Below, piece by piece: positions 24,192 through 38,816 of a stretch of DNA of 64,000 nucleotides. The DNA lies in NCBI RefSeq assembly GCF_014284155.1, contig NZ_JACOFZ010000011.1, positions 19,490-83,489 on the forward strand, written 5' to 3'. The notes beneath the pieces were generated by a model. It was not told where the DNA came from. It saw only the letters and a list, made by a program, of their open reading frames with translations, and did not search any database. Position 1 is the first letter of the stretch. Each line of letters opens with the position of its first letter. The stretch is from Affinundibacterium nitidum (GTDB lineage Bacteria > Pseudomonadota > Gammaproteobacteria > Burkholderiales > Burkholderiaceae_D). A program made the position numbers and the translations under genes.

Positions 24192-24818
24192 ATGTTCGGA
24201 CGATTAATGCCCACAGAGGGTAAGTTTTTTGATCTTTTCAATCAACACGCTGAATTGTGCGTGAAGGGTTCAAAAGAAATGGTCGCGTTGATGACAAATT
24301 TCGATGATCTCGAAATTCGTGTGCACGCAATCGAAGGCGTTGAAAAACAAGCTGATGCAGTCACTTACAACACCATTGAACTGTTGCATAAGACTTTCAT
24401 TACACCACTAGATCGTGATGATATCCATAAATTGATCACCAAGATGGATGACATTTTGGATCTGTTGGAAGATGCTGCACAAACAATCTCTTTATACGAC
24501 ATCCGTGAAATCACACCTGAAGCAAAACGCTTAGCTGAATTGTGCTTGGCATGTTCAGAAAAAGTAAAAGCGGCGGTAGCTTTGTTGCCGAATATGGATA
24601 ACTCTCGCCAGATTTTGACTATCTGTGAAGAAATCGATCGTTTGGAATCCGATGCAGATCACGTCATGCGTGCAGCAATGTCTAAATTGTTCCGTGATGA
24701 ACCAGACGTACGTAATTTGATCAAGCTGAAAGCCATTTACGAAATTCTCGAAACAGTGACAGATCGTTGTGAAGACGTGGCAAATATCATTGAGGGTATT
24801 GTGGTTGAAAATGCTTAA
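24192..24818 (+). CDS. PhoU-like (DUF47) accessory protein of Pit transporter
   Basis: A cytoplasmic all-helical protein of 208 residues from the DUF47/PhoU-like family that is commonly encoded just before a Pit transporter. It has the acidic metal-binding-type motifs of PhoU folds (EGVEKQADAVTYN; MDDILDLLEDAA; IDRLESDADHVMRAA; YEILETVTDRCEDVANIIEGI). It probably controls Pit activity or phosphate entry. It is followed 66 bases later by pit, so the two form one operon. Confidence 0.9.
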   Translation: MFGRLMPTEGKFFDLFNQHAELCVKGSKEMVALMTNFDDLEIRVHAIEGVEKQADAVTYNTIELLHKTFITPLDRDDIHKLITKMDDILDLLEDAAQTISLYDIREITPEAKRLAELCLACSEKVKAAVALLPNMDNSRQILTICEEIDRLESDADHVMRAAMSKLFRDEPDVRNLIKLKAIYEILETVTDRCEDVANIIEGIVVENA

Positions 24819-24884
24819 AGCATTTCAATTGCATGCTTCCTAATTTTTGTTTGCGTTCAACGCAGATCAACGAGAGAATTTATT

Positions 24885-25886
24885 ATGCAAACTAGCTTGT
24901 ATGTCATCATTTTGTTGGTGACTTTAGCCTTATTGTTCGACTTCATGAATGGATTTCATGATGCAGCGAATGCAATTGCGACAGTCGTTTCGACCGGTGT
25001 TTTGCGCCCTGGTCAAGCGGTTGCGTTGGCAGCTATTTTTAATGTATTGGCCTTTTTTGTTTTCAATTTGTCGGTGGCGAAAACAATTGGTAAAGGTACG
25101 ATTGATCCAGCAGTGATCGATCATTATGTGGTTTTTGGTGCTTTGGTTGGCGCTATCTTTTGGAATCTGGTCACTTGGTATTTTGGTATTCCATCTTCAT
25201 CTTCACATGCGTTAATTGGTGGTTTGATTGGTGCTGCGGTTGCAAAAGAAGGAACCAGCGCGTTGATTTCCGCTGGCCTGATCAAGATCATCACATTTAT
25301 CGTGCTTTCTCCCCTTATCGGTTTCTTACTTGGTTCACTATTAATGTTATTGGTATCGTGGATTTTTGTGAAATCGACTCCGTTGAAAGTAGATAAATGG
25401 TTCCGTCGCTTGCAGTTGGTTTCTGCTTCTGCATTTAGCTTGGGGCATGGCGGTAATGACGCTCAGAAGACGATGGCGATCATTTGGATGTTATTGATTG
25501 CTGCAGGCTACTGCAGTAAAAATGATCCGCTTCCTCCAATGTGGGTTGTTTACTCATGCTACGCTGCGATCGGTTTTGGTACATTGTTTGGCGGGTGGCG
25601 TATCGTAAAAACGATGGGTCAAAAGATCACTAAACTGAAGCCAGTAGGTGGATTTTGCGCTGAAGGTGCCGGCGCCTTAACATTATTGTTTGCAAATCTG
25701 TCTGGCATTCCAGTTTCGACGACGCACACTATTACTGGCGCGATTGTCGGTGTAGGTTCTGCTCAGAAAATGTCTGCTGTTCGTTGGGGTGTTGCCGGTA
25801 ATATTGTATGGGCATGGGTTCTGACTATTCCAGCTTCTGCGTTTGTTGCGGCGATCTCTTGGTGGGTCGGTACCAAGATCATGTAA
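24885..25886 (+). CDS. pit: Low-affinity inorganic phosphate transporter Pit
   Basis: An inner-membrane symporter of 333 residues for phosphate, probably as a metal-phosphate complex. The two inverted PiT signature repeats are clear: DFMNGFHDAANAIATVV at the N-terminus, with a GHGGNDAQKTMAI counterpart in the second half, each followed by an SSHA / STTHT segment. Around ten hydrophobic segments are visible. It ends at a bidirectional terminator shared with the lipoprotein cluster on the other strand. Confidence 0.93.
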   Translation: MQTSLYVIILLVTLALLFDFMNGFHDAANAIATVVSTGVLRPGQAVALAAIFNVLAFFVFNLSVAKTIGKGTIDPAVIDHYVVFGALVGAIFWNLVTWYFGIPSSSSHALIGGLIGAAVAKEGTSALISAGLIKIITFIVLSPLIGFLLGSLLMLLVSWIFVKSTPLKVDKWFRRLQLVSASAFSLGHGGNDAQKTMAIIWMLLIAAGYCSKNDPLPPMWVVYSCYAAIGFGTLFGGWRIVKTMGQKITKLKPVGGFCAEGAGALTLLFANLSGIPVSTTHTITGAIVGVGSAQKMSAVRWGVAGNIVWAWVLTIPASAFVAAISWWVGTKIM

Positions 25887-25904: not shown

Positions 25905-25937
25905 AAAAAACCCGAGCTGTGATGTTCGGGTTTTTTT
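25905..25937. terminator. Bidirectional terminator, pit / lipoprotein cluster
   Basis: AAAAAACCCGA (25905-25915) pairs with TCGGGTTTTTT (25926-25936) around a 10-base loop; it works in both directions. Confidence 0.92.
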
Positions 25938-25968: not shown

Positions 25969-26553
25969 TTAGAACATTAATTGAGTTTTCTTTTGTTCAA
26001 ATTGATACCATTGCTGATTTGCTTTGTAATTTACGATCAGCATTGTCGTCAAAGCTTGCGGTAGGCTAATTGTGCAGTTGGAGATATGTTCTTCGCTGAT
26101 CGCATCCGCTTGGATCTCAAAAAAAACCATGTGTATATCCGCGCTTGGATCGACAATAAGCTGCATCGCATGTTCTCTCAGCGTTTGATGAAGCGATGAA
26201 GTCGATGGCCATTTCCAATGTTGAATATTGAGATTGGCACCATTCGATTTGATTAACTTGGTTTCTGTCAACAAATGTGCATTTGCCTTGGTAGACAGTG
26301 AATCGAAATCTGAATCAGACAAAGCTGCAAAACGTAAGATGAAGTCTTTCTGGCTCAACTCTTTTGCGTAAAGTTGATGAAGAAATTCCAAGTAATTCAA
26401 GCGAAAAATTAAGTTGAGATGAATGTCATCCCGTAACACGATGGTGACCCGATTTGATTCTAATTCGTGCGCGTTTGCGTTTGCGTTTGGCAGACAGTAG
26501 CATGCGCCGACCAAGATGCAACTAGATAGCCATTGTGAGTAGCGTAACCACAT
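25969..26553 (-). CDS. Small secreted protein of unknown function
   Basis: I do not recognise a named family. The 194 residues start with a signal peptide (hydrophobic stretch SSCILVGACYC, probable cleavage after NANANA), followed by HELESNRVTIVLRDDIHLNLIFRLNYLEFLHQLYA and a soluble mixed alpha/beta-looking chain. It lacks membrane segments after the signal and has no clear catalytic motif. It begins 12 bases after the DUF4214-PEBP-YHYH lipoprotein stop and is the last gene of the six-gene run, so it probably acts with those lipoproteins at the cell surface or in the periplasm. Confidence 0.65.
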   Translation of the reverse strand: MWLRYSQWLSSCILVGACYCLPNANANAHELESNRVTIVLRDDIHLNLIFRLNYLEFLHQLYAKELSQKDFILRFAALSDSDFDSLSTKANAHLLTETKLIKSNGANLNIQHWKWPSTSSLHQTLREHAMQLIVDPSADIHMVFFEIQADAISEEHISNCTISLPQALTTMLIVNYKANQQWYQFEQKKTQLMF

Positions 26554-26565
26554 TTAAGTTATCCT

Positions 26566-29151
26566 TTATCTACAGTAGCTGATAGACGGCTGCGTTGTCG
26601 TGCCACTAGAGTTAATGAATTGAAAATTCCAACACATGGTCTTTCCGCTGTTCTTACTCTGTGCAAGTGCGGTACTCAGCTCAGTTCCACTTAAAGCTTT
26701 ATAGCGTATCTTGTACGTGCCGGCTGTGTTTGTGTAGGAATCTGAACCTATCTCATTAGTGATAAACGTTTTTGCTGAAGTGAATTGTAGAACCTGATAA
26801 CCGTCTGTGCTATCTGTACTGAGTGTCATCGCACTTACGTTGAACGGGGTAACCGGTGGTTGGCGCATGGGGCTGTATTTACTCGATTGGTTGGCTAAGT
26901 CAGGGCTTGGCGTGCCGCGGAAGCATGACAGTACATATGGAGATGCATCGGTCACGTGATAAGCGTAGCCAGCAGGACCATTGCTGACGGGGTCAGTATT
27001 GCCACCACAGGTACTGTCGCGTGGAGCTACTTTGCCGTCAGCGTTGTTGTAACCATAGATGGCAAAGCCGTCGAGAGCCCAACCAATCGGATGAGTGTCC
27101 CAATAGCTGCTTGGTTTTGCCGACATTACACAGCTCGGCGCAGCATGATAATGATAGTCATCGGCGCGACCCGCGTGACCGTTACATATATCGAGTTCAC
27201 CTAAGACTTTGGTATCGCCATTTTGGCAACCACCTTGTTTGCATGGATTGAAGATCGGTACGCCATTGATTGCAATACCGATCGGGCCATCAACTGCCGA
27301 GGTTGTCGTTGCGGCGATTGCTGGTGCGAGAGGAATCTTCCAGCCATTAGCACCGTTGAATTTTTGGACCGTTGGCACTTGAAGATTAGTTGCAGTGATA
27401 CCGTTCATCATTGCATGTGTGGTGATTCCAAGGGAGCTGACATAGGCATAGTTTGCATCGCAACTCACCACAGCATAACCAGTGTTTGATGCGTTCATCG
27501 AATTGCGAACATTTACGCAGGCTGCGCTTGAACCCGTCATCGTCGTTCGGGTGAAGTTTAAATTGAGCGAACTAGACCCGAGCGTAATGTTGGCGATGGC
27601 ATCACGTATGATTGAGCCGGTGATAGCTCCAGAAGTGGGTAGGCTAGGGGATGCTGAAAGAGCATAGATTGTGAAGGTATAGATCTTTGCGCCAGGGCCT
27701 TGCGAGCAAGGCGGCTGATATGCCGCCATTGGACCATCACTGCCGACACCGAGAGTGCCGACGCCAAAGCTATCTTTTGCAAGGCTCGTCGTGGTGGCGG
27801 GAATGCTGTATAACACCCAATTCCATTTGGTACTCCCATCTCCTGGGAGTGTTGTCATCAATAAAGCAAATTCCTTTGTTCCTGCAGGTGCATTTGTCCA
27901 GCTAAGAGGTATCGTTGAACCAGTGCCGTCGCAGGTGTAATCCGCGGTCATTGCACTACCATCTGCGCCAGCACTGCTGCTTAATTTGAAACCGCTACTA
28001 GATACTTGTGGCGTCGCGGAGATGATGGATGAACTGTCACCGTCTCCGATTGCGTTGCTGGTTTTGACCGAGCATCGATAGGTCGTGCCATTATTGAGCC
28101 CACTCACGAGAAGTGGACTTGCTGCGCCGACTTTCTGTATCGTGGTTGAGTTATTGGTGCATGTAGCGGTGTACGAAGTAATGGTGCTTCCTCCATTTCG
28201 AGAGGGAGCGGTAAAGCTCAAAGAAATAGTGCCATCCGCTGCCGTTGCGTTGAGATTTGTTGGTGCTGGAGGTGTGGTCTTTGCGAGGTTAAAATTAGTA
28301 TCAATCAAGCCAAGTGTCGCGATAGCTTGATCCGTGTCTTCAGCAGTCACTAAGCTGGCAATCGAAATTGATTTGCTGATGTTGTCGGCGACATTGAGGT
28401 AGCTTAATCCCTGCTCAATGCTTATGTATCTGCCTACGCTAATCTTGTTATTTAATAGGCGTGTGACCCAACCTACATTCGGATCATTGGCTAGGGAGCG
28501 AGCGGACACGAGCATGGCGATCACAACACTACTCCGCGTTTGATTGCCTGAAGCGATATCATTGCTCCAATAATTGACTTCCGTATCTGTTGGTGCGCTT
28601 GTACCTGTTCGACCCAACACATTCTTATAAAGTATTTTGACGAAGTCGGCGTTACTCATATTTGCAGTGTAGCCTGTTAGATCAGGATAGAGTAAACCAG
28701 CCGCATAGAAGCTATCTGCAATTTGCGAGACGCTCTTACCTGCAAGCAGTTGTCTAATCCAATAATTCATCCCTTCAGCGTCTGGAACTCGGTTGAAGAA
28801 GGCAATGTATAACTCAATCAGAGAACGAAGTTGAGTTTCTGAAATTTGTGGAACTAGTGTCCCAAGACTGAGATCGACGCTGAAATCGGTAAAGCTCAGT
28901 TTGCTTGACATCGATACGGTGCGCGCACTCTCTTGTCCGGTAGCGTCTACGATGGTCGCATCACTCGCATTCGTGGTGATGCGATAGTTACTGCGCTTTC
29001 CAATTAACTGGATAGCTTGTGTAGCGGCTGGTGTTGGCTTCATTGCAGTGCTCTGCATTGCATTATTCTCTTGATTACCCCCACATCCGTTCAACATTCC
29101 AAGCAGAATTGGTATGGCGATGATGGAAGGCTTGAGTTTTACGAGAAACAT
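26566..29151 (-). CDS. Lipoprotein: DUF4214 + FN3 + PEBP-like + YHYH domains
   Basis: A predicted lipoprotein of 861 residues (lipobox LNGC, Cys23). Domains in order: a DUF4214 module at about residues 110-290 (LIELYIAFFNRVPDAEGMNY, LYKNVLGRTG); an FN3 domain to about 385; a PEBP/YbhB-like domain at about 387-540 (IPLSWTNAPAGTKEFALLM) lacking an obvious DPDxP site; and a YHYH domain to the end (DDYHYHAAPSCV near residue 665, HPIGWALDGFAIYG). The ATG at 29151 has GGAG six bases before it. The N-terminal 290 residues are paralogous to the next two genes, which carry phosphoesterase domains instead. Activity is unknown. Confidence 0.85.
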   Translation of the reverse strand: MFLVKLKPSIIAIPILLGMLNGCGGNQENNAMQSTAMKPTPAATQAIQLIGKRSNYRITTNASDATIVDATGQESARTVSMSSKLSFTDFSVDLSLGTLVPQISETQLRSLIELYIAFFNRVPDAEGMNYWIRQLLAGKSVSQIADSFYAAGLLYPDLTGYTANMSNADFVKILYKNVLGRTGTSAPTDTEVNYWSNDIASGNQTRSSVVIAMLVSARSLANDPNVGWVTRLLNNKISVGRYISIEQGLSYLNVADNISKSISIASLVTAEDTDQAIATLGLIDTNFNLAKTTPPAPTNLNATAADGTISLSFTAPSRNGGSTITSYTATCTNNSTTIQKVGAASPLLVSGLNNGTTYRCSVKTSNAIGDGDSSSIISATPQVSSSGFKLSSSAGADGSAMTADYTCDGTGSTIPLSWTNAPAGTKEFALLMTTLPGDGSTKWNWVLYSIPATTTSLAKDSFGVGTLGVGSDGPMAAYQPPCSQGPGAKIYTFTIYALSASPSLPTSGAITGSIIRDAIANITLGSSSLNLNFTRTTMTGSSAACVNVRNSMNASNTGYAVVSCDANYAYVSSLGITTHAMMNGITATNLQVPTVQKFNGANGWKIPLAPAIAATTTSAVDGPIGIAINGVPIFNPCKQGGCQNGDTKVLGELDICNGHAGRADDYHYHAAPSCVMSAKPSSYWDTHPIGWALDGFAIYGYNNADGKVAPRDSTCGGNTDPVSNGPAGYAYHVTDASPYVLSCFRGTPSPDLANQSSKYSPMRQPPVTPFNVSAMTLSTDSTDGYQVLQFTSAKTFITNEIGSDSYTNTAGTYKIRYKALSGTELSTALAQSKNSGKTMCWNFQFINSSGTTTQPSISYCR

Positions 29152-29209
29152 CATTTTCTCCGTTGGGCAAAGTAGAAAGAGCAAAAAAGAATATCTTTAA
29201 AAATGTTCG

Positions 29210-31714
29210 CTATTGGGCTGGTGTCACCGTCCAGGTATCGTCAACTTGCCGATTCTTTCGCGTTGATGTCTCACTTCCAGGTAACCAAGAACGAATATAT
29301 TCGCCTTTAACGCCTTGGGCTGACACTGTTACCTTTAAGTGCCCTGAGCTACTTTGAATTACGCCTGAATCGTAGTGGTATTCTTTCGCGAGGTTGGCAC
29401 CACTTGTGTTGTTGGCCGCGCTCGGTTGCGGTACTTCTTGATAAATAACACCATCTAGAATTTGTCTAGCGTAAACATGATCGTGTCCATGAAACACTGC
29501 AGTCACTCTGTTGTTGACTAGTAGTTTGTGGATAGGCATGCTCCAACCGGGACGTTTGACGTCAAAGCCATAGCTACCATCTGTGTTCTTTCCACCCCAT
29601 TCATAAAATGATGCGGCTTCAATTCCTCCACGCATTTGGCCATCGAGCCCTCCCACGAGATTGTGTAAAAAGACGAATTTGTATTTTGCGGAACTTTTAC
29701 TTAAGGTATCTGATAGCCATTGATATTGAGTGCTTCCCAAAGTCATATTCCAAGCATCCTTACTTGCTTGTGCTTTTGTATTCCAATAAGGGTCGAGAAC
29801 AATGAAAAGCGCATCGCCCCATTGCCACGCATACCAAGACGCACGTTGTCCAGTTAATTGATTCAGCTCGGGATCGCCACTGTAGAATTTATTCGGCAGA
29901 GGATTCGCGTAATATTTTTGTCTCGCGAGGCTTGCCCAAACAGCGATATTGTTTGCAGAGCCGTTATAGAGCCAACCTAATTCGCCTTCATGATTCCCAT
30001 TGGCAAGGAATAAGGGGGTTGAATGAGTGATGCGACCAAAATGCTGGCGTTCATAAACATAACGGTCATTCACCATGCTCTGACTGGTTGCCATCGCCAC
30101 GACAGCGTCAAACGGCCCCATATGTTTCTCCGTCATAAAAGTATCGCCAAGATCGATGTGAAAATCTGGCTTGTCGAGGAGGATATTGTCGAGTGTTCGC
30201 TGGTACTGAGATAAATTTGAGTTTTCATCAAGATGGGAGTCCGCTTGAATCGTAAAACTAAACGTGTCTCCAAACGATCTTGAGGTATGAAAGTCGTAGA
30301 TTTTTGAGCTGGTCGCTGTGTTGGTCGCGGTACTTTGATAATTCACCATGTAATAAATAGAAGTGTTTGCAATTAAATTATCAAGTTGAAATTCGAGAGG
30401 GACGCCAGCGAGCAAAGCTTTCGTGGGCGTTTGATTAGATAACGCGTTCGGGCTTGTTCCGTAGTTGATAGAAACGAAACCTGCTTGTGAACTCGAAAGC
30501 AACTTGATTCTGACGCTTGAATCAGTCGGTGCACCCAACACAATATCGCCGCTGTATGGTGGGGATGCAATTCCTGTTCCAGTCACAATATTTAAAGTTG
30601 TTGAAGGCGAACTCTGCCCGAAACTATTGCTTGCGGTGAGTGAACACAGATAACTTTGATTGGCGCTTAAGCTGCCGATTACCAATGGACTTGTAGTGCC
30701 TTTGACATTAAGAGTAGACGTGCCGCTAGAACAACTTGCACTGTATTCAAGAATTGGGCTGCCGCCATCGCTGAGCGGCAAATCAAAGCTAAATGAAATG
30801 CTGGAACTAGTGTTTGTACTGGTGATATTGCGGGGTGACTCTGGCGCGGTCACACTTAAATCGAAAGTGAGATCTTTGATGCCGATGAGTGACATCGCTC
30901 TGGTCGTGTCGTTGGGCGTAATCGCATTGGCAATTGCGATCGTGCGGGTAATGTTGTCGCTAGGATTCGAATAGCTAATGCCTTGAGCTACGGCGAAAAA
31001 TTGAGCAACTTGTATCTTATTGTTGAGTAAAGTATTGACCCAGCCGACACTGGGGTCATTTGCTAGACTTCTTGCCGAGGCCAACATCGCAATCACAAGT
31101 GATGTTCTCGTTTGTCGACCACTTGCAATATCACTTGTCCAATAGGTGACTTCAGCGTCCGAAGGCGCAGTGCTGCCACTCCGACCGAGCACATTCTTAT
31201 ATACAATCCTCACAAAGTCAGCGTTGCTCATGTCTTTGCTGTAACCAGTCAGTTCCGGATAAAGCAGTCCCGCTTGATAAAAGCTGTCGGCGATCTGAGA
31301 AATAGATTTTCCATTGATCAGTTGGTCCATCCAATAAGCTAGACCTTCGGAGTCTGGAATGCGGTTGAAATAGGCGACATATAATTCGATCAATGCTTGT
31401 GTCTGCGCTTTTGAAACCTTTTGTAACTGATTCGCGATCCCAAGATTAACCCGCAGGTCGCTAAAAACCAATGTACTTGCGTTACTAACGTCACTAAGCC
31501 CTTCATTGCCGATCGCATCATTCAGTGTAGTATTGTTTTGTTTGCGCGTGATCGTAAAATTATTCCGACCTCCTGTCAGCGTTATGGTGTTGTTGATTAC
31601 CGGAGGAGGTGCAATCAGCACATCCGATTGAGTGACATTGTTCTGAGACCCACCGCATCCTGTGAGGCCGATGCAGATCATGAAAATGGATTGTAATGTA
31701 GCAGTGATCTTCAC
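29210..31714 (-). CDS. Lipoprotein: DUF4214 + FN3 + purple-acid-phosphatase-like phosphoesterase (intact)
   Basis: A predicted lipoprotein of 834 residues (lipobox LTGC, Cys20; GTG start at 31714 with GGAG seven bases before). A DUF4214 module (LIELYVAYFNRIPDSEGLAY, VYKNVLGRSG) is followed by FN3, then a PAP-type N-terminal beta domain (SGDIVLGAPTDSSVRIKLL) and a calcineurin-like metallophosphoesterase from about residue 484. All metal-site blocks are present: QADSHLD, LGDTF, NGNHE, FLHN and FHGHDH. An active, surface-attached phosphomonoesterase or diesterase is likely. It is flanked by an interrupted paralogue upstream and the PEBP-YHYH lipoprotein downstream, with short gaps. Confidence 0.88.
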   Translation of the reverse strand: MKITATLQSIFMICIGLTGCGGSQNNVTQSDVLIAPPPVINNTITLTGGRNNFTITRKQNNTTLNDAIGNEGLSDVSNASTLVFSDLRVNLGIANQLQKVSKAQTQALIELYVAYFNRIPDSEGLAYWMDQLINGKSISQIADSFYQAGLLYPELTGYSKDMSNADFVRIVYKNVLGRSGSTAPSDAEVTYWTSDIASGRQTRTSLVIAMLASARSLANDPSVGWVNTLLNNKIQVAQFFAVAQGISYSNPSDNITRTIAIANAITPNDTTRAMSLIGIKDLTFDLSVTAPESPRNITSTNTSSSISFSFDLPLSDGGSPILEYSASCSSGTSTLNVKGTTSPLVIGSLSANQSYLCSLTASNSFGQSSPSTTLNIVTGTGIASPPYSGDIVLGAPTDSSVRIKLLSSSQAGFVSINYGTSPNALSNQTPTKALLAGVPLEFQLDNLIANTSIYYMVNYQSTATNTATSSKIYDFHTSRSFGDTFSFTIQADSHLDENSNLSQYQRTLDNILLDKPDFHIDLGDTFMTEKHMGPFDAVVAMATSQSMVNDRYVYERQHFGRITHSTPLFLANGNHEGELGWLYNGSANNIAVWASLARQKYYANPLPNKFYSGDPELNQLTGQRASWYAWQWGDALFIVLDPYWNTKAQASKDAWNMTLGSTQYQWLSDTLSKSSAKYKFVFLHNLVGGLDGQMRGGIEAASFYEWGGKNTDGSYGFDVKRPGWSMPIHKLLVNNRVTAVFHGHDHVYARQILDGVIYQEVPQPSAANNTSGANLAKEYHYDSGVIQSSSGHLKVTVSAQGVKGEYIRSWLPGSETSTRKNRQVDDTWTVTPAQ

Positions 31715-31741
31715 GAATGTGCTCCGTTGTCTCAAGAAGGG

Positions 31742-34237
31742 TTAAGGTATTGTGTAACTAAAGACGGGTGTTCCATTGACCTTGCCTGGGCCTTCGTCCT
31801 TAGGTAAGTAAGTTCGCACATATTCGACCTTGACGCCCGTTGGCTCTACTCGAACACGTGTATATCCGGTGCTTGGAAAGCGTTCCCCAGTTAGGTATGC
31901 ATCTGAATTCCACAATGCGTAATTTGGATCAGCTGGTTCTGAGAGGCTTTGGTAGGTGACACCATCCAATTGTTGATGAACCCAAATGTGGTCATGACCT
32001 TGGAAAAAAATGGTGACTTTGTTCGCCACCATCAGTTGGTGAATGGGAAGGTTCCATTTCGGACGTAGCGCAGCAAACTCACTCACGCCTTTCGCATTTT
32101 TTCCACCCCATTCCCAGAGCCCCGCGAGCTCGACACCGCCACGCCCAGTTCCCATTACATGGTGGGCAAAAACAAATTTATATTTTGATTTACTCTTTTC
32201 GAGCGTTTCTTTTAGCCATAGATACTGCTCATCACCATGTGTGACATCCCACATGTTCGTACGCTTGGGATCGCCACCAAAGACATTGTCAACCGCAACC
32301 GGTGAAGCCCAATAAGGATCGATTACCACAAATAAAGCATCCCCCCAAGTCCAGGCATAGTAGTTTCTGAGTAGACCTATAAAGGGCACAATTTCCTTAT
32401 TACCTGAATAGAAGTAATCTGGAGCAGGTTGTGAGTAATGGCTGTTACGTGCATTCTGTGCCCACACAGCGATATTCTCAGGTGTGCCGTTTAGGTTGAA
32501 ACGCGCTGCTTGCTCATGATTACCGTTCACAAGAAAAACAGGTGAAGAGGTGCCGATAAGCCCGAGATAGGGGCGCTGAATCGTATAGCGTTCAGTCACT
32601 TTCGTCGCGTTGATGGTCTTGGGATCAAGTGTATCGACACTGAAATCATCGCCAAGTAAAAGATAGAAATCTGGTTTGTCCGCTGCCACCGTTTGTAGCG
32701 TGCGGGTATACAAGGCGCTGTCAAATTGAGATTTTTCTCGTTCTGGATGAGAGTCGCCCTGTAAGGCAAATGTAAATGCTTGACCGGGGGATCTCGCTGA
32801 CTGAAATGAATATTCGATTGTTGGGCCCGAGCCAATATTGTTTGAAGCCTGGAAGTCGAGTCGATAGAAGTAACGCGTATCCGCGTTGAGACCTGTCAGT
32901 ATTAGTTCGACTGGTGTATTCGCACTCAAATTTACGCGTTCGGTTTGCTTTTCGTATTGCCCTGGATTGCGGCCATAACGTATTGATACTGTGCCTGTCT
33001 GTGAAGTGGAGAAAATATTTGCTTTAATCGATGTATCGGTTGGGGAGCCGAGAACGATATTCCCTGAGAAATTTCCCAGTGCTACTTCGGCGGCTGGATT
33101 GATGGTCACGTTAGTAGACGCATTACTGCTAGCAAAAGCGGTGTTGGTATAGACTTGGCAAGTGTAGCTCTTCCCATTGCTTAGACCGTTGATCGATATA
33201 GGACTCGTGCTACCGACACTAGATAAATTCTCGGTGCCAGCATTGCACTTGATCGTGTAATTGAGAATGGAAAGTCCACCGGAATTTGTAGGAGCATTAA
33301 AGTAAACGCCACCACCATTATTATTTGAGAATGTACTGATTACTTGCGGTGCCGCTGGCACCGTTGCGAGCAGATTGAAATTTGCGTCTTTTACGTTGAA
33401 AGAATCGATAGCTTGAGTGATGTCGCTTGAACTAATTAGCGCCGAGATTGTGCTGAAGCGGCTGATATTATCGGTCGAATTGAGGTAGCTGACGCCTTGT
33501 TCGAGCGCAGCGTAGCGTCCCATCTTTACTTTATTATTGAGTAGTTGCGCCACCCATCCGAAATTGGCGTCACCTGCAAACGTCTTCGCAGAGGCAAGCA
33601 TGCTGGCCACAAGTGAACTTTTCGTTTGACGTCCCGATGTTAGATCATTGACCCAATATTGAATTTCTTCAATGCTCGGTGCTGTACTGCCGGTTCTCCC
33701 TAATACGTTTTTATAAATAATGCGGACGAAATCTGCCGAGCTGAGTGTACTAGAGTAGCCAGTGAGTTCCGGAAATAAGGCACCAGCAGAGTAGAAACTG
33801 TCCGCGATCTGAGGAATCGTTTTTCCAGATTTGAGTTCTCCAATCCAATATGCCATTCCGTCTGAATCTGGTAGTCGGTTGAAGAAAGCAATATATAGTT
33901 CAACGAGGTTGTCGATGTCGGCACCGGAGACGGTAGGTACGAGGGCAGCGATTGTTAAGTTGACGCTCAAGTCGCTAAACACCAATTTGCTCGCATTGCT
34001 AGCGTCAGTGCTTCCATCACCGCCAACCAAGTCAATGACTTGGATTGAGTTGGTAGCTCGGTTGATTTGATAGTTTTGGCGTGGGCCATTAAATCAAATA
34101 ACACCATTTTCAATTGGCGGAGCAGAAAGTGCAATTTTTGCAGGTGTGCTGGCATTCTGTCTGTCGTCATTGCCGCATCCAAACAATAGAATGCTTAGAT
34201 ACATTGACAGGGTGATTGTAATTAGTCGTTTTATCAT
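31742..34237 (-). pseudogene. Lipoprotein: DUF4214 + PAP-like phosphoesterase, interrupted by in-frame TGA
   Basis: Reading from ATG 34237 gives a lipoprotein N-terminus (MIKRLITITLSMYLSILLFG then Cys21), then an in-frame TGA at codon 48 (34094-34096), after which the same frame continues for about 780 codons: DUF4214 (LVELYIAFFNRLPDSDGMAY), FN3, PAP N-domain and a phosphoesterase with every metal block intact (QGDSHPE, LGDDF, NGNHE, FAHH, FQGHDH). The region around the stop aligns with the two paralogues without indel. A TTG at 34030 could start a shorter product but it would lack the signal. So this is a recent nonsense allele, a read-through gene or a base-call error. It starts 12 bases after the histidine kinase gene. 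Confidence 0.8.
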
Positions 34238-34249
34238 CGGAAGTGCCAT

Positions 34250-35653
34250 TCAATTGATTGTTGTGTTCAGAGGCAAGGTTAGATGCAGTTGGACAACATC
34301 CAACGAGCTCTCTTCGAGGCGTAGCAGTCCTTTGTGAGCCCTTGCAATTTCAAGCGCCACATTTAGGCCAAGGCCCGTACCATCAATATGTCGCGTGCGG
34401 GCAGGGTCACCACGATAGAAGCTATCGAAGAATCGTGATCGCTGGTTAAGATCGATGGGACTGCAAATGTTGGTAATGCGCAGTTCGAATTGGTGCTTGT
34501 CAACTTTGACGAAAAGATCGATCACCGTACCCTCGATAGCATATTTCACGGCATTGCTTAAAAGATTTGTGAGCAGCTGCCGAATTAACACTTCATCCGC
34601 GTTGATTAAGATATGTTGGGGAGATCTTAAGTGGATGTGCTTTTTTGCGGCTAACATTTCCATATCGCCTGTTAATTCTTTGAGCATGTCGCTGATATCG
34701 AATTCCGATCTTTCGAGGATGAGATTTCCGCTTTCTGCCTGCGCCAAGAAAAGCAGGCGTTTCGTGATGTGCGTCAAACGTGTGACCTCATCAAGCATCT
34801 GAGATTGTTCCTGTTGAACGATACTGTTAGTGGTTTGGTTGAGCGATTTCTCTAGCTTTCCCTGAAGGATTGTGAGCGGTGTTCGCAACTCATGTGCGGC
34901 ATTAGAGGCGAAGCGAGATGCCTGATGAAAACTTCGCTCAAGCCTTTCGAGCATGTCGTTGTACGAATCAATAAATCCTCTAAATTCAATATATTCATTT
35001 TCAGGATTGAGCCGTAAATGAAGTTCATTTTTGTCTATTCTGTTCATCGCCTCAGTGATGGTGTAGAGCGGTTGAGTGACAAGCTTGGTTAGTGCCCATG
35101 CTGCCAACACACTACAGAATAGATAAACAGGAATTAAAATTTTGAAGGCGCGTCGCAGTGAAGCATTAATTTCGTTAAGTGCGGAATTTTTCTTGACAAT
35201 GAGCGCTGCGACAAATCGATCGTTTGCGAGTTGAGCACGGACCCATAGCTCATTCGATGTGCTCAAAGTATCGAGCTGGCAGCGATCCTTCTGCGCTGAA
35301 GCTGACGCTTCAGGTTGCTTGGAAATACGATTGAGCAGACTGAACTCGTTAGGCCAGTTTGACGTTCGAATTTGGTTTTTTGAAGGTTCTGAGTTGATGT
35401 CGTTGACGGTGAATGCGAGATCGCTCTTTTCTGCTAAGTGCAGTTTTTGTGCCATATCGCTCCAAATTTTCAAACTTTGATCGTAATCAATTGGGTTTTT
35501 TGTCAGTCGTTTGATTTCCATACACATACGATTTTCTACACGGCCAGATTCATACTGAGTCAGACTCTGTGTACCAACAACCAAAGCTAGAATGAGAAGT
35601 AACGATGCTCCGAGAATCGCACTAATGAATATCTTAACTCGATAACTCTTCAT
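34250..35653 (-). CDS. Sensor histidine kinase (OmpR-partner type)
   Basis: An inner-membrane kinase of 467 residues. Membrane segments lie at about 8-27 and 171-190 with a periplasmic domain of about 140 residues between them. A HAMP region follows, then the DHp box with His254 (SNAAHELRTPL) and a HATPase domain (N-box LLTNLLSNAVKYA, GTGLGLNVALEIA). The ATG at 35653 overlaps the regulator stop codon (ATGA) and has AGAGGGGA before it; longer starts would run inside the regulator gene. It probably senses a periplasmic signal for the lipoprotein genes that follow it 12 bases later. The periplasmic domain is not one I recognise. Confidence 0.92.
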   Translation of the reverse strand: MKSYRVKIFISAILGASLLLILALVVGTQSLTQYESGRVENRMCMEIKRLTKNPIDYDQSLKIWSDMAQKLHLAEKSDLAFTVNDINSEPSKNQIRTSNWPNEFSLLNRISKQPEASASAQKDRCQLDTLSTSNELWVRAQLANDRFVAALIVKKNSALNEINASLRRAFKILIPVYLFCSVLAAWALTKLVTQPLYTITEAMNRIDKNELHLRLNPENEYIEFRGFIDSYNDMLERLERSFHQASRFASNAAHELRTPLTILQGKLEKSLNQTTNSIVQQEQSQMLDEVTRLTHITKRLLFLAQAESGNLILERSEFDISDMLKELTGDMEMLAAKKHIHLRSPQHILINADEVLIRQLLTNLLSNAVKYAIEGTVIDLFVKVDKHQFELRITNICSPIDLNQRSRFFDSFYRGDPARTRHIDGTGLGLNVALEIARAHKGLLRLEESSLDVVQLHLTLPLNTTIN

Positions 35654-36345
35654 AAATTTTCCCCTCTCGGTGGACGAAAGCGGTAGCCCGCGCCTCGTAC
35701 CGCTTCGATGATGGAAAAATTGGATTCGGAATCGATGCTGGCGATTTTGTCGCGAATACGCTTTACACAGACATCGACAATATTGGTGCTGGGATCGAAG
35801 TCGTATCCCCAAACATGCTCTAATATCTGTCCACGCGTAAAAATTTTTCCAGGGGAGCGCATTAAATACTCAAGTAAGTTGAATTCTCGGCTACTGAGAT
35901 CGATTTTGACGGTATTGGCAAAGGCCTGACGGTTAATCCTATCAAGTTTGAAATCACCAACGCTAATGATGTATTCCCTTTCGCCAGATATGCGGCGAGC
36001 GATAGCCTTTATACGGGCATCCAATTCTTCAACAAAAAATGGCTTTGCTAAGTAGTCATCGGCGCCTAAGTTCAGACCATCGACTCGATCCTTAAGTTGA
36101 TTGCGGGCAGTGAGCAGGATTGTTGGAGTTGAGTTTCCAGCATTCCTCAATTCTTGAAGTATGCTGAGCCCATCTTTCCCAGGTAGCATAATGTCAAAGA
36201 TGTGGAGGTCGAAAGTGCTTCGAAGCGCTGTCGTTAGGGCTTCTAAACCGTCTGCGATATGAGTTACCACATAGCCACGTTCCGTTAGTCCTGACGTGAC
36301 GATATCTGCGATCTTTATTTCATCTTCAACAAGTAGTATTTGCAC
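35650..36345 (-). CDS. OmpR/PhoB-type response regulator
   Basis: A DNA-binding regulator of 231 residues. The receiver domain has the acidic pair E7-D8, the phospho-acceptor D51 (HIFDIMLPGKDG) and the conserved Lys in YLAKPF. The C-terminal winged helix is of OmpR type (SSREFNLLEYLM, ILEHVWGYDFDPSTNIVDVCVKRIRDKI, VRGAGYRF). A GTG start at 36345, with AAGGGG upstream, fits the family better than the longer frame. It is translationally coupled to the kinase gene. It is likely to regulate the downstream lipoprotein genes and itself, since it heads the run. Confidence 0.93.
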   Translation of the reverse strand: MQILLVEDEIKIADIVTSGLTERGYVVTHIADGLEALTTALRSTFDLHIFDIMLPGKDGLSILQELRNAGNSTPTILLTARNQLKDRVDGLNLGADDYLAKPFFVEELDARIKAIARRISGEREYIISVGDFKLDRINRQAFANTVKIDLSSREFNLLEYLMRSPGKIFTRGQILEHVWGYDFDPSTNIVDVCVKRIRDKIASIDSESNFSIIEAVRGAGYRFRPPRGENL

Positions 36346-36673
36346 GATTTGCCCCTTGTGTTCAAACTGAATTTTAGGTGGTATCGCAGAGGTGCAAAAT
36401 GACATTTCTGTCATTCATGTGACTAAATGTAAGTGTTCTGGCTAGGTCCTTTCGTGAAACTTACAGATCAACAAAGATGACTGTTGACTGGATCACGAGA
36501 GAATTGAAGTTATTTTTTTACAATCGAACTTCCAAGGTGCACACAATACGGTGCTCTTTTGTGAAATTCAAAACCGATGATGGGAGTTTGAGAAATGCAG
36601 GAATAATGGTATTGCTATACCCCCATTTGACTGCGTTCTTAATTGAAGCCAAATGGGAAATTGTCACAAACAC
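36346..36673 (-). promoter_or_regulatory. Regulatory region before the two-component / lipoprotein run
   Basis: This 328-base gap has no convincing gene. On the minus strand a promoter-like pair TTGAAT (36571-36566), N17, TATTGT (36548-36543) is present. Closer to the start are two inverted repeats: TGTAAGT (36428-36434) with ACTTACA (36459-36465), and AATGACA (36398-36404) with TGTCATT (36409-36415). They are candidate binding sites of the response regulator. A third ACTTACA lies at 36672-36678. Confidence 0.4.
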
Positions 36674-37432
36674 TTACATTTGTTTAAAAAGGTGGACGAA
36701 GCTTCGACTCACTTCTAATTTCTCAGTTAACCCTTTGATTTGAACTAGGTGGCGCCCGCGCATATCGCGGACGACGCCAGAAATGGCTTTTGAATTGACT
36801 AATGTCGAACGGTGAATCTGCCAAAAAAGGTGTGGATCTAACTCGTCAGCGAGATCTCGAACGGGCTTGCGAATTAATGCTTCATAAGTGGCTGTTTGCA
36901 CGCGCGTATATTTCTCATCAGATTGAAAGAAAAGAATATCCTCAACTGGGATAAGGCGCAGCTCTTGTCCGATCGAAGCCTGAATCCATTGTAAATAATT
37001 AGGTTTCGGCGCAATACCAAGCTGTTTTGCAAGTTGAGCGAGCATATTGCTCATATCGTTGGGCTCTGTAGCACTTTGCAGTCGCGCCTTTAGGCGTTCA
37101 ACAGTTTTGCCAAGTCTCTCAGGATCTGCTGGTTTCAACACGTAGTCGACTGCTCCTTGATCGAACGCTTCGACAGCATATTGGTCGTAGGCCGTGATGA
37201 AGACAATATGTGCTTTACTGCCAATGTCTCTGGCGGCTTCGAGACCGGTCTTTGCCGGCATTCTGATATCTAGGAATGCCAGGTCAGGTTTATGTTGTTC
37301 GACCATTTGCACTGCTTCTTCTCCATTTTTTGCTTCATCGAGAATTTGTAATTCGGGCCAGACTTGTTCGAGACGAGATCTTAATTGATCTCGCATTAGT
37401 CTTTCGTCGTCAGCGATAATTGCGGTTGGCAT
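36674..37432 (-). CDS. LytTR-type response regulator (AlgR/LytR family)
   Basis: A cytoplasmic regulator of 252 residues. The receiver domain has D8, D9, phospho-acceptor D55 (LAFLDIRMPAKTG) and Lys in VLKPAD. The C-terminal LytTR DNA-binding domain shows RLIPVEDILFFQSDEKYTRV and DPHLFWQIHRSTLVNSKAI. It follows the LytS-type kinase gene by 55 bases, forming a second two-component pair distinct from the OmpR-type pair. Target genes are unknown. Confidence 0.93.
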   Translation of the reverse strand: MPTAIIADDERLMRDQLRSRLEQVWPELQILDEAKNGEEAVQMVEQHKPDLAFLDIRMPAKTGLEAARDIGSKAHIVFITAYDQYAVEAFDQGAVDYVLKPADPERLGKTVERLKARLQSATEPNDMSNMLAQLAKQLGIAPKPNYLQWIQASIGQELRLIPVEDILFFQSDEKYTRVQTATYEALIRKPVRDLADELDPHLFWQIHRSTLVNSKAISGVVRDMRGRHLVQIKGLTEKLEVSRSFVHLFKQM

Positions 37433-37487
37433 ATTCTTCCTTTAATCGTCTTGTTGATATTTTGAAATGATCTTAACTTTCTTTTTT

Positions 37488-38816
37488 TTATTTGGCAATT
37501 TCGAAAGGAATTTCGATTGCAACACATACGCCTGACGGTTGGTTTGCTGTAATGATCAATTGTGCGTTATCTTTGTAAATTAGCTTTAGCCGTTCTTTGA
37601 TGTTTTGCAAACCTAAACCCGTCCCATTACTCGGCACCGCACCGAAGCCTAAGCCATCGTCCTTGACAGTAACACGCAATTTTTCCCCCAGAATTTCAGC
37701 TCTAAATTGCAGTGTTCCACCTTCTGCCTTTACCTCTAGCCCATGTTTAATCGCATTCTCAACAACAGATTGCAGCATCATTGGGGGGAACGATGCAGAC
37801 CGTAAATTTTCCGGCATGATGAAGTCGATATTTAAACGTTCTTCCATTCGCATCTTGATTAATTGCAGATAGGACTTCACGATATCAGCTTCACGCCCTA
37901 AATTTGTCTTTGCAGCGTTCTCACGCATTTGTGGAAGTACGGCTCTTAGATATGAAATGAGACTGCGCTGCATCGCTGCAGCCCTCGGAGGATCTGTTTC
38001 AATCAAATACTCAACGGATGCTAAAGTATTGAACAGAAAATGCGGCTCAACTTGTGCTTGCATCATCTGCATTTGAGCTTCGCTCACTTGACGCAACAGT
38101 GCTTCACGTTCAGCAGCGGCATTCGCGACTTTGGCTTGTTCTTCTGCACGTACTTTTCCGCCCATCAGTGCTTTCATGCCAAACAGGCCAAAGACCAAAA
38201 GGGCGATGAAATTTTTAAACCATTTAGAAGATTTTGTTTTCTCTTCGGTCGTCGCTTCTTCAGCTGCGTCCGCTTTTGCTTTGTCTAACTCGGCCTGAAT
38301 TTCTTTCGCTAATTCTTTGGGAAGTCGAATGTGAACGTCGTCTTTACCGATCGTGATCCCAGGAAGTGAATTGCTGTTTGCTTCCTTCTTTTTGCTTTCA
38401 TCGACAGCACCTTCAATTTTTTCCTTTATTTTTTCAGCTTGTTCGTCCACAACTTCCCAGCCATCGCCATTGATCTCGACACGCTTTCCAGACGCCATGT
38501 GCTCCGGTTTCTTTATACGTATTCCTGTGTTGTCGATTTCAAAGTTCGCGTCATCGGTTTTTATCGTGCGCTTTGCAGAATCCTCTTTTTGGGCGCGTTT
38601 CTTTGACGTAGATTTATGTTGACTCGTCGTTGATTCGTTTGGTGAGAGTGCATCTTGAATAATGTCGCCAGAAATGAAGAGCAAGATTGCGAAAAGGAAG
38701 AACTTCCACCACGAGAGCTTTCCAACCCAGGTGGCAGTCTTATCAAAGGCTATACTCAGTCCTGCTAGAACTTGACTAGCGAACAACTTCAATTTGGCGA
38801 GTGTTTGTGGATCCAT
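37488..38816 (-). CDS. LytS/YehU-type sensor histidine kinase with unusual extracytoplasmic insert
   Basis: A 442-residue kinase of the His_kinase/HATPase type. Two membrane segments (about 37-53 and 199-219) bracket a highly charged, Lys/Glu-rich insert of about 145 residues that contains two related motifs, FEIDNTGIRIKK and ITIGKDDVHIRLPK. A short coiled coil precedes the phospho-acceptor H259 (QAQVEPHFLFNTLASVEYL); the ATPase domain has VVENAIKHGLE and GTGLGLQNIKERL. It is unlike the multi-membrane LytS sensor; the insert is probably the sensing part, with unknown ligand. It precedes the LytTR regulator and must be its partner. Confidence 0.9.
   Translation of the reverse strand: MDPQTLAKLKLFASQVLAGLSIAFDKTATWVGKLSWWKFFLFAILLFISGDIIQDALSPNESTTSQHKSTSKKRAQKEDSAKRTIKTDDANFEIDNTGIRIKKPEHMASGKRVEINGDGWEVVDEQAEKIKEKIEGAVDESKKKEANSNSLPGITIGKDDVHIRLPKELAKEIQAELDKAKADAAEEATTEEKTKSSKWFKNFIALLVFGLFGMKALMGGKVRAEEQAKVANAAAEREALLRQVSEAQMQMMQAQVEPHFLFNTLASVEYLIETDPPRAAAMQRSLISYLRAVLPQMRENAAKTNLGREADIVKSYLQLIKMRMEERLNIDFIMPENLRSASFPPMMLQSVVENAIKHGLEVKAEGGTLQFRAEILGEKLRVTVKDDGLGFGAVPSNGTGLGLQNIKERLKLIYKDNAQLIITANQPSGVCVAIEIPFEIAK

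Follow-up and report, generated by a model that had tools for sequence, protein, structure and literature searches.

A Six-Gene Two-Component Operon of Affinundibacterium nitidum Suggests a New Form of Extracellular Metal Handling

Introduction

A 64,000-nucleotide stretch of the Affinundibacterium nitidum genome (contig NZ_JACOFZ010000011.1, positions 19,490 to 83,489; hereafter the window) carries six closely spaced genes for an OmpR-type response regulator, a sensor kinase, two DUF4214-fn3-metallophosphoesterase lipoproteins (MPE1 and MPE2), a DUF4214-fn3-PEBP-YHYH lipoprotein and a small secreted protein. The locus raises the question of what these proteins do together, and whether the DUF4214 module shared by the lipoproteins, which a preliminary description had taken as a common surface scaffold, is the part that unites them. 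The comparison with relatives places the YHYH lipoprotein and the small protein at the center, and the operon suggests a so far undescribed form of extracellular metal handling.

Results

Conservation of the Operon Among Relatives

All six genes occur in identical order in two congeners (G017 and G039), together with the same neighbors on the side of a presumed PiT-type gene, and in G017 the other flank agrees as well. Between the window and G017, the operon genes show less nonsynonymous (pN 0.15–0.36) than synonymous (pS 0.46–0.82) change per site. Thus, the retained order and the constraint suggest that the operon is more than a chance arrangement.

In order to follow the genes further, the GTDB was scanned with an alignment of the PEBP-YHYH protein, which yielded 373 relatives. 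The best 80 of them (79 distinct loci, leaning to close relatives) were used; they stem from Beta-, Gamma- and Alphaproteobacteria, Acidobacteria, Gemmatimonadetes and Leptospiraceae, many being metagenome-assembled genomes. Loci were scored with our own hidden Markov models (HMMs), whereby the small-protein HMM was refined on those same loci, and the 40 loci flanked by 7 kb or more in either direction served as the fully flanked subset. Of the 79 loci, 70 contain the small protein, as do 66 of the 70 that have at least 900 bases downstream; the matches in L103, L105 and L106 are weak (E about 1e-4), and a similar gene in L104 was recognized by eye only. Its match starts at a median of 26 bases behind the YHYH stop, with exceptions including L087, L098 and L103. 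The free variation of neighbors that the preliminary description named as counter-evidence is partly borne out: among the fully flanked loci the two-component pair (7/40) and the phosphoesterase (12/40) vary, while YHYH and the small protein are nearly constant. Since this pairing contrasts with the patchy occurrence of phosphoesterase, pair and DUF4214, we consider YHYH and the small protein as the core and the remaining genes as accessory.

The same pairing is seen closer to the window. Four of 44 Undibacterium genomes encode the small protein, and the same four encode the full PEBP-YHYH protein; 25 match PEBP-YHYH in some way, 21 of these in parts only. In G070, from the same family, YHYH and the small protein stand alone in the 20 kb around the locus. 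U. squillarum (G003) has regulator, kinase, MPE1, MPE2, YHYH and small protein, and the small gene is immediately followed by one for a TonB-dependent receptor. At L009 4771-7842, U. squillarum encodes two additional phosphoesterases, again of these two types but lacking DUF4214. At L054 (3743-6544) YHYH and the small protein share one continuous reading frame with a signal peptide in mid-frame, and L098 (13293-14522) has a tandem pair of small-protein genes, one without the N-terminal His. A secreted-looking protein of 444 residues without Pfam match is encoded at L048 12088-13422; its cluster recurs in four loci.

The Small Secreted Protein Resembles Anglerases

The small protein comprises 194 residues and stops after its domain, with no fused HupE/UreJ-2 permease. 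A His directly follows the predicted signal peptide in 73 of 74 aligned rows, and only the second of the two small genes at L098 deviates; cleavage was judged by eye, and a 66-row alignment (His in 66/66) was trimmed to start at that His. The AlphaFold2 (AF2) model has a predicted local distance difference test score (pLDDT) of 93.3 and shows a beta sandwich in which three helices are inserted between the second and third strands. Its best PDB structural match in Foldseek is 9GCE, and ZrgA is among its fold kin. 9GCE belongs to the anglerases Ang-1/Ang-2, published in 2025 and located on HupE/UreJ permeases (PMC12537917; PDB 9GCE). The proteins are alike in a secreted domain of about 165 residues, a predicted mature N-terminal His and the beta sandwich with three helices, whereas the protein described here stands alone, without a HupE/UreJ permease, is paired with a PEBP-YHYH lipoprotein and gives no significant profile match. 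In its modeled fold and N-terminal His it looks like a metal binder. The family is unnamed in the catalogs (NCBIfam 0 of 66 members; one stray Pfam match among 66). A PDB sequence search with its profile gave a designed protein as best match (E 0.25), two HupE N-terminal domains had no PDB sequence match, and a plasmid search with the small protein returned none. The marine gammaproteobacterial YHYH loci L103, L104 and L106 carry a divergent small protein (HALKE.. or HVLKE..).

The YHYH Lipoprotein and the Phosphoesterases

In the YHYH domain, H670, D676, H678 and H680 as well as several Cys are invariant across 78 aligned rows. A passage of a jumbo-phage survey presents this domain as a predicted metal-dependent (Zn-binding) hydrolase (PMC7824862). 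The conserved His/Asp set is shared with YHYH domain proteins (PF14240) in general, whereas here the domain shares a lipoprotein with PEBP and is associated with an anglerase-like protein and a sensor. The AF2 model of the 839-residue lipoprotein reached a mean pLDDT of 80.4 and a predicted template modeling score of 0.63; among the matches listed in a structure search, only the PEBP and fn3 folds were covered, not YHYH. A viral structure search gave mostly fn3 matches, although a YHYH protein of a cyanophage ranked 21st, and a PDB sequence search of the PEBP-YHYH part gave four matches, all to PEBP. In the open-access full-text literature we found no relevant work on YHYH with copper, judged by title, and no paper combining HupE with YHYH.

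MPE1 and MPE2, whose Metallophos scores both exceed the Pfam cut-off, are predicted metal-dependent hydrolases: the calcineurin-like ligand motifs D-x-H, GD, GNH, H and GHxH are each present in 58–60 of 60 aligned rows, the exceptions being gaps and one Ser. The window copy of MPE1 reads as 51 codons with signal peptide and lipobox, a TGA, and then 783 open codons. Both G017 and G039 have an uninterrupted copy, and the body is still constrained against G017 (pN 0.163, pS 0.82; YHYH gene 0.149 and 0.779); thus, the TGA is probably a recent stop or a sequence error. At L028, L058 and L064 a single protein combines phosphoesterase and YHYH; the HMM count gives fusions in 2 of the 79 loci. L028 (3162-7802) is a second locus in the window’s genome and encodes a DUF4214-phosphoesterase-YHYH lipoprotein of 1125 residues. 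Its gene is divergent from that of a HupE/UreJ-2 permease, which has a His right after the signal peptide.

The Sensor Pair and Its DNA Box

The regulator is nearest to the CopR/CusR/CzcR subfamily. TIGR01387 is the top-ranking NCBIfam family for the regulator (222.1 bits, cut-off 279.2) and TIGR01386 for the kinase (234.8 bits, cut-off 292.55), both scores lying under the cut-offs. The two Cys of the sensor region are present in 13 of 13 aligned kinases. The 13 system regulators cluster apart from 12 other regulators of the window’s genome (support 88/85, not full). Three marine loci (L103, L104 and L106) carry pairs whose regulators belong to a different lineage; two origins are required by the best tree, though fully supported branches force only one.

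All 13 regulator genes have a box ATGACA-N4-TGTCAT upstream, with no more than one mismatch. Thirty of 31 box sites lie at most 1.2 kb before a system gene (13 response regulator, 10 MPE1, 7 YHYH), with distances measured to the HMM start. The density of 31 per 302,657 bases compares with 6 per 1,069,663 bases in the 68 loci without this two-component pair; of these 6 sites, two (in L050 and L087) are some 50 bases ahead of a YHYH or small frame, and one more, in L088, is at the start of a YHYH frame. In the window, the box stands about 53 bases ahead of the regulator’s GTG (57 from its HMM start), and it aligns with the boxes of both nearest relatives. An alignment of the DNA upstream in three relatives brought out TTACA-N7-ACAT-N2-ATGAC-N5-TGTCAT. 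Allowing one mismatch, the window’s genome has 16 places versus 5 for the reversed control. Two of them are perfect, one inside a predicted coding sequence and the operon’s own, the sole perfect one outside coding sequence. Of the 14 one-mismatch copies, 4 were inspected, all inside coding sequences.

The E. coli CusR site, as given in a passage of PMC11195947, reads AAAATGACAAnnTTGTCATTTT. Half-sites and spacing of the operon box are identical to it. The pair resembles CusRS/CopRS/PcoRS in its nearest HMM subfamilies and in core and spacing of the binding site, and differs in scoring below the subfamily cut-offs, in the two invariant sensor Cys and in its hydrolase lipoprotein neighbors. Copper two-component systems adjoin efflux pumps or oxidases.

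Operon Layout and Neighboring Genes

The features are compiled in Table 1. All six same-strand genes of the preliminary description are present, with an overlap of 4 bases (regulator/kinase) and gaps of 0 (kinase–MPE1), 6 (MPE1–MPE2), 25 or 55 (MPE2–YHYH, for a TTG start at 29184 or an ATG at 29154) and 12 (YHYH–small gene), against a described range of –4 to about 58. Its assignment of an OmpR-type pair and of three DUF4214 lipoproteins with different C-termini agrees with Pfam, which finds two DUF4214 stretches and fn3 in each large protein and no domain in the small one. A lipobox Cys follows the signal peptide in MPE2 and YHYH (by eye); that of MPE1 precedes the TGA. The longest frame of the regulator begins at 36414, within the palindrome, and the tabulated start matches relatives. 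The inverted repeat behind the last gene has a loop longer than 8 and is thus outside the list of the terminator scan. That scan (11 sites versus 10.1 in shuffles, about equal) and the promoter scan (6 versus 17.7, fewer than in shuffles) carry no weight.

Directly upstream of the operon and apart from it lies a second response regulator and sensor pair (36674-38816), presumably of the LytTR type. On the other side, two genes convergent with the operon (24192-25886), which we take to encode a DUF47-like protein and a PiT-type phosphate transporter, are also found beside it in G017 and G039.

Table 1. Features of the operon in the window (all on the minus strand).
Feature	Position	Basis or remark
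OmpR-type response regulator	35650..36345 (-), GTG start 36345	Pfam Response_reg and Trans_reg_C
Sensor histidine kinase	34250..35653 (-)	Pfam HisKA and HATPase_c; sensor region with two invariant Cys
MPE1 lipoprotein, DUF4214-fn3-metallophosphoesterase	31742..34249 (-)	In-frame TGA 34094-34096
MPE2 lipoprotein, DUF4214-fn3-metallophosphoesterase	29210..31735 (-)	Pfam; metal-ligand motifs conserved
DUF4214-fn3-PEBP-YHYH lipoprotein	26566..29184 (-)	Pfam PBP and YHYH
Anglerase-like small secreted protein; His at residue 29 predicted to be the mature N-terminus	25969..26553 (-)	
Putative response-regulator binding site, palindromic box ATGACA-GAAA-TGTCAT	36399..36414 (-)	Perfect match
Terminator-like inverted repeat, then T’s, 3' of the last gene	25905..25930 (-)	Read by eye

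The DUF4214 Module

PF13946 has 44 matches in 22 genes (counted by hand) of the window’s genome, three of which lie in the window. Nine further lipoproteins there carry the N-terminal module of about 260 residues ahead of other C-terminal parts, which include DUF1800, cyclophilin, NHL repeats, S41 peptidase and a fusion of phosphoesterase and YHYH; four of the nine have no further Pfam match. Of 44 Undibacterium genomes, 26 contain the N-module, a single genome having as many as 35 matches (not all lipoproteins), and 18 have no match. It has no match anywhere in the U. squillarum genome, and seven scanned proteins of the operon region there contain no DUF4214. Among the 79 YHYH loci, 4 have the module. 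DUF4214 as the core was rejected because the module is widespread in the genome and missing from relatives; we read the DUF4214 part as a lineage-specific tether and not as the active principle.

Discussion

The six genes and the box very probably form a regulon. The preliminary description is supported in part: the joint function under one sensor that it proposed gains support from the order kept in two congeners, the recurrence of the box ahead of separate YHYH and phosphoesterase units at other loci and the phosphoesterase-YHYH fusions. The sensor with its two cysteines would detect a soft metal, most likely of the copper group, or a thiol state caused by metal; that the signal is a copper-group metal we slightly favor. 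By phosphorelay the regulator would be phosphorylated, bind ATGACA-N4-TGTCAT and switch on its own gene and the operon. The anglerase-like protein would be exported, trimmed to a free N-terminal His and bind metal there, and the lipoproteins, two binuclear phosphoesterases and PEBP-YHYH, would have phosphorylated or lipid substrates at the cell surface, using metal or being supplied with it. The chances that this amounts to a dedicated metal-responsive surface regulon, which handles metal together with hydrolysis, appear evenly balanced. More tentative is the proposed function itself, namely that a copper-group metal is captured or buffered at the cell surface in conjunction with metal-dependent hydrolysis.

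Several observations weigh against a metal-responsive surface regulon of this kind. MPE1 is broken as written in the window, only 7 of the 40 fully flanked loci have this two-component pair and 12 a phosphoesterase (11 and 29 of all 79 loci), and regulator and kinase fall below the heavy-metal subfamily cut-offs, so that the signal may not be copper. The five inspected non-operon box sites of the window’s genome lie inside predicted coding sequences, and with these no copper gene of this genome was tied to the box; in the window alone, with up to two mismatches, 4 sites compare with 3.79 in shuffles, no excess. The match to 9GCE has only 11% identity (TM 0.54, 5.5 Å), and hhalign of the small protein against HupE-attached N-terminal domains was not significant (E 0.11 and 0.14; 2 or 17 rows, domains from relatives).

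The main rival is metal acquisition, in which the anglerase-like protein and the lipoproteins would scavenge scarce copper, nickel or zinc for delivery to a HupE/UreJ-type permease, with the phosphoesterases freeing metal from phosphorylated ligands. The permease-bound position of the published anglerases, the TonB-dependent receptor gene of U. squillarum and HupE-type permease genes in 5 of the 79 loci would fit this idea, as would the fold kinship to ZrgA, which is linked to zinc uptake in Vibrio. However, the window’s operon has no permease gene, and a one-query search of the DNA around YHYH, which could miss a divergent HupE, gave no match in the other 74 loci. Moreover, CopR/CusR-type pairs usually answer to excess metal, for which reason capture or buffering is favored over plain nutrient uptake; acquisition seems unlikely, though it deserves to be taken seriously.

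It could also be that the phosphoesterases and the lipid-binding PEBP lipoprotein strip phosphate from organic phosphate or phospholipid, and that metal merely serves the enzymes. Two phosphoesterase lipoproteins next to a PEBP domain, and the convergent, presumably PiT-type and DUF47-like, genes adjoining the operon in the window, G017 and G039 speak for such phosphorus scavenging. Yet the box is like a CusR site and unlike a Pho box, 28 of the 40 fully flanked loci have no recognized phosphoesterase of this kind, and the 20 kb around the U. squillarum operon contain no match to the window’s PiT gene, so we regard this explanation as improbable. Still less credible is that DUF4214 forms a shared surface scaffold which places different catalytic domains in one complex. 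All three lipoproteins bear the module, PF13946 matches them above cut-off, and passages of two papers link DUF4214 to surface or S-layer anchoring (PMC11970703, PMC12780176). However, here the module is the N-terminal part of lipoproteins and dispensable in relatives of the operon, being absent from that of U. squillarum and from 75 of the 79 loci, and nine further lipoproteins of the window’s genome bear it with other C-terminal parts. A paper joining DUF4214 with lipoprotein was not found in the open-access full-text literature.

Returning to metal handling, the data may describe a previously unrecognized extracytoplasmic system across several bacterial phyla, a proposal that we rate just short of evenly balanced. 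It would consist of an uncataloged, stand-alone anglerase-like family and a PEBP-YHYH metalloenzyme under OmpR-type sensors of two lineages, carried in Undibacterium on DUF4214 tethers together with phosphoesterases. The enigmatic YHYH domain would thereby gain a partner and a regulator, and the anglerase idea would extend from permease-bound domains to a free-standing, uncataloged family. With a short DNA box named, the regulon becomes directly testable.
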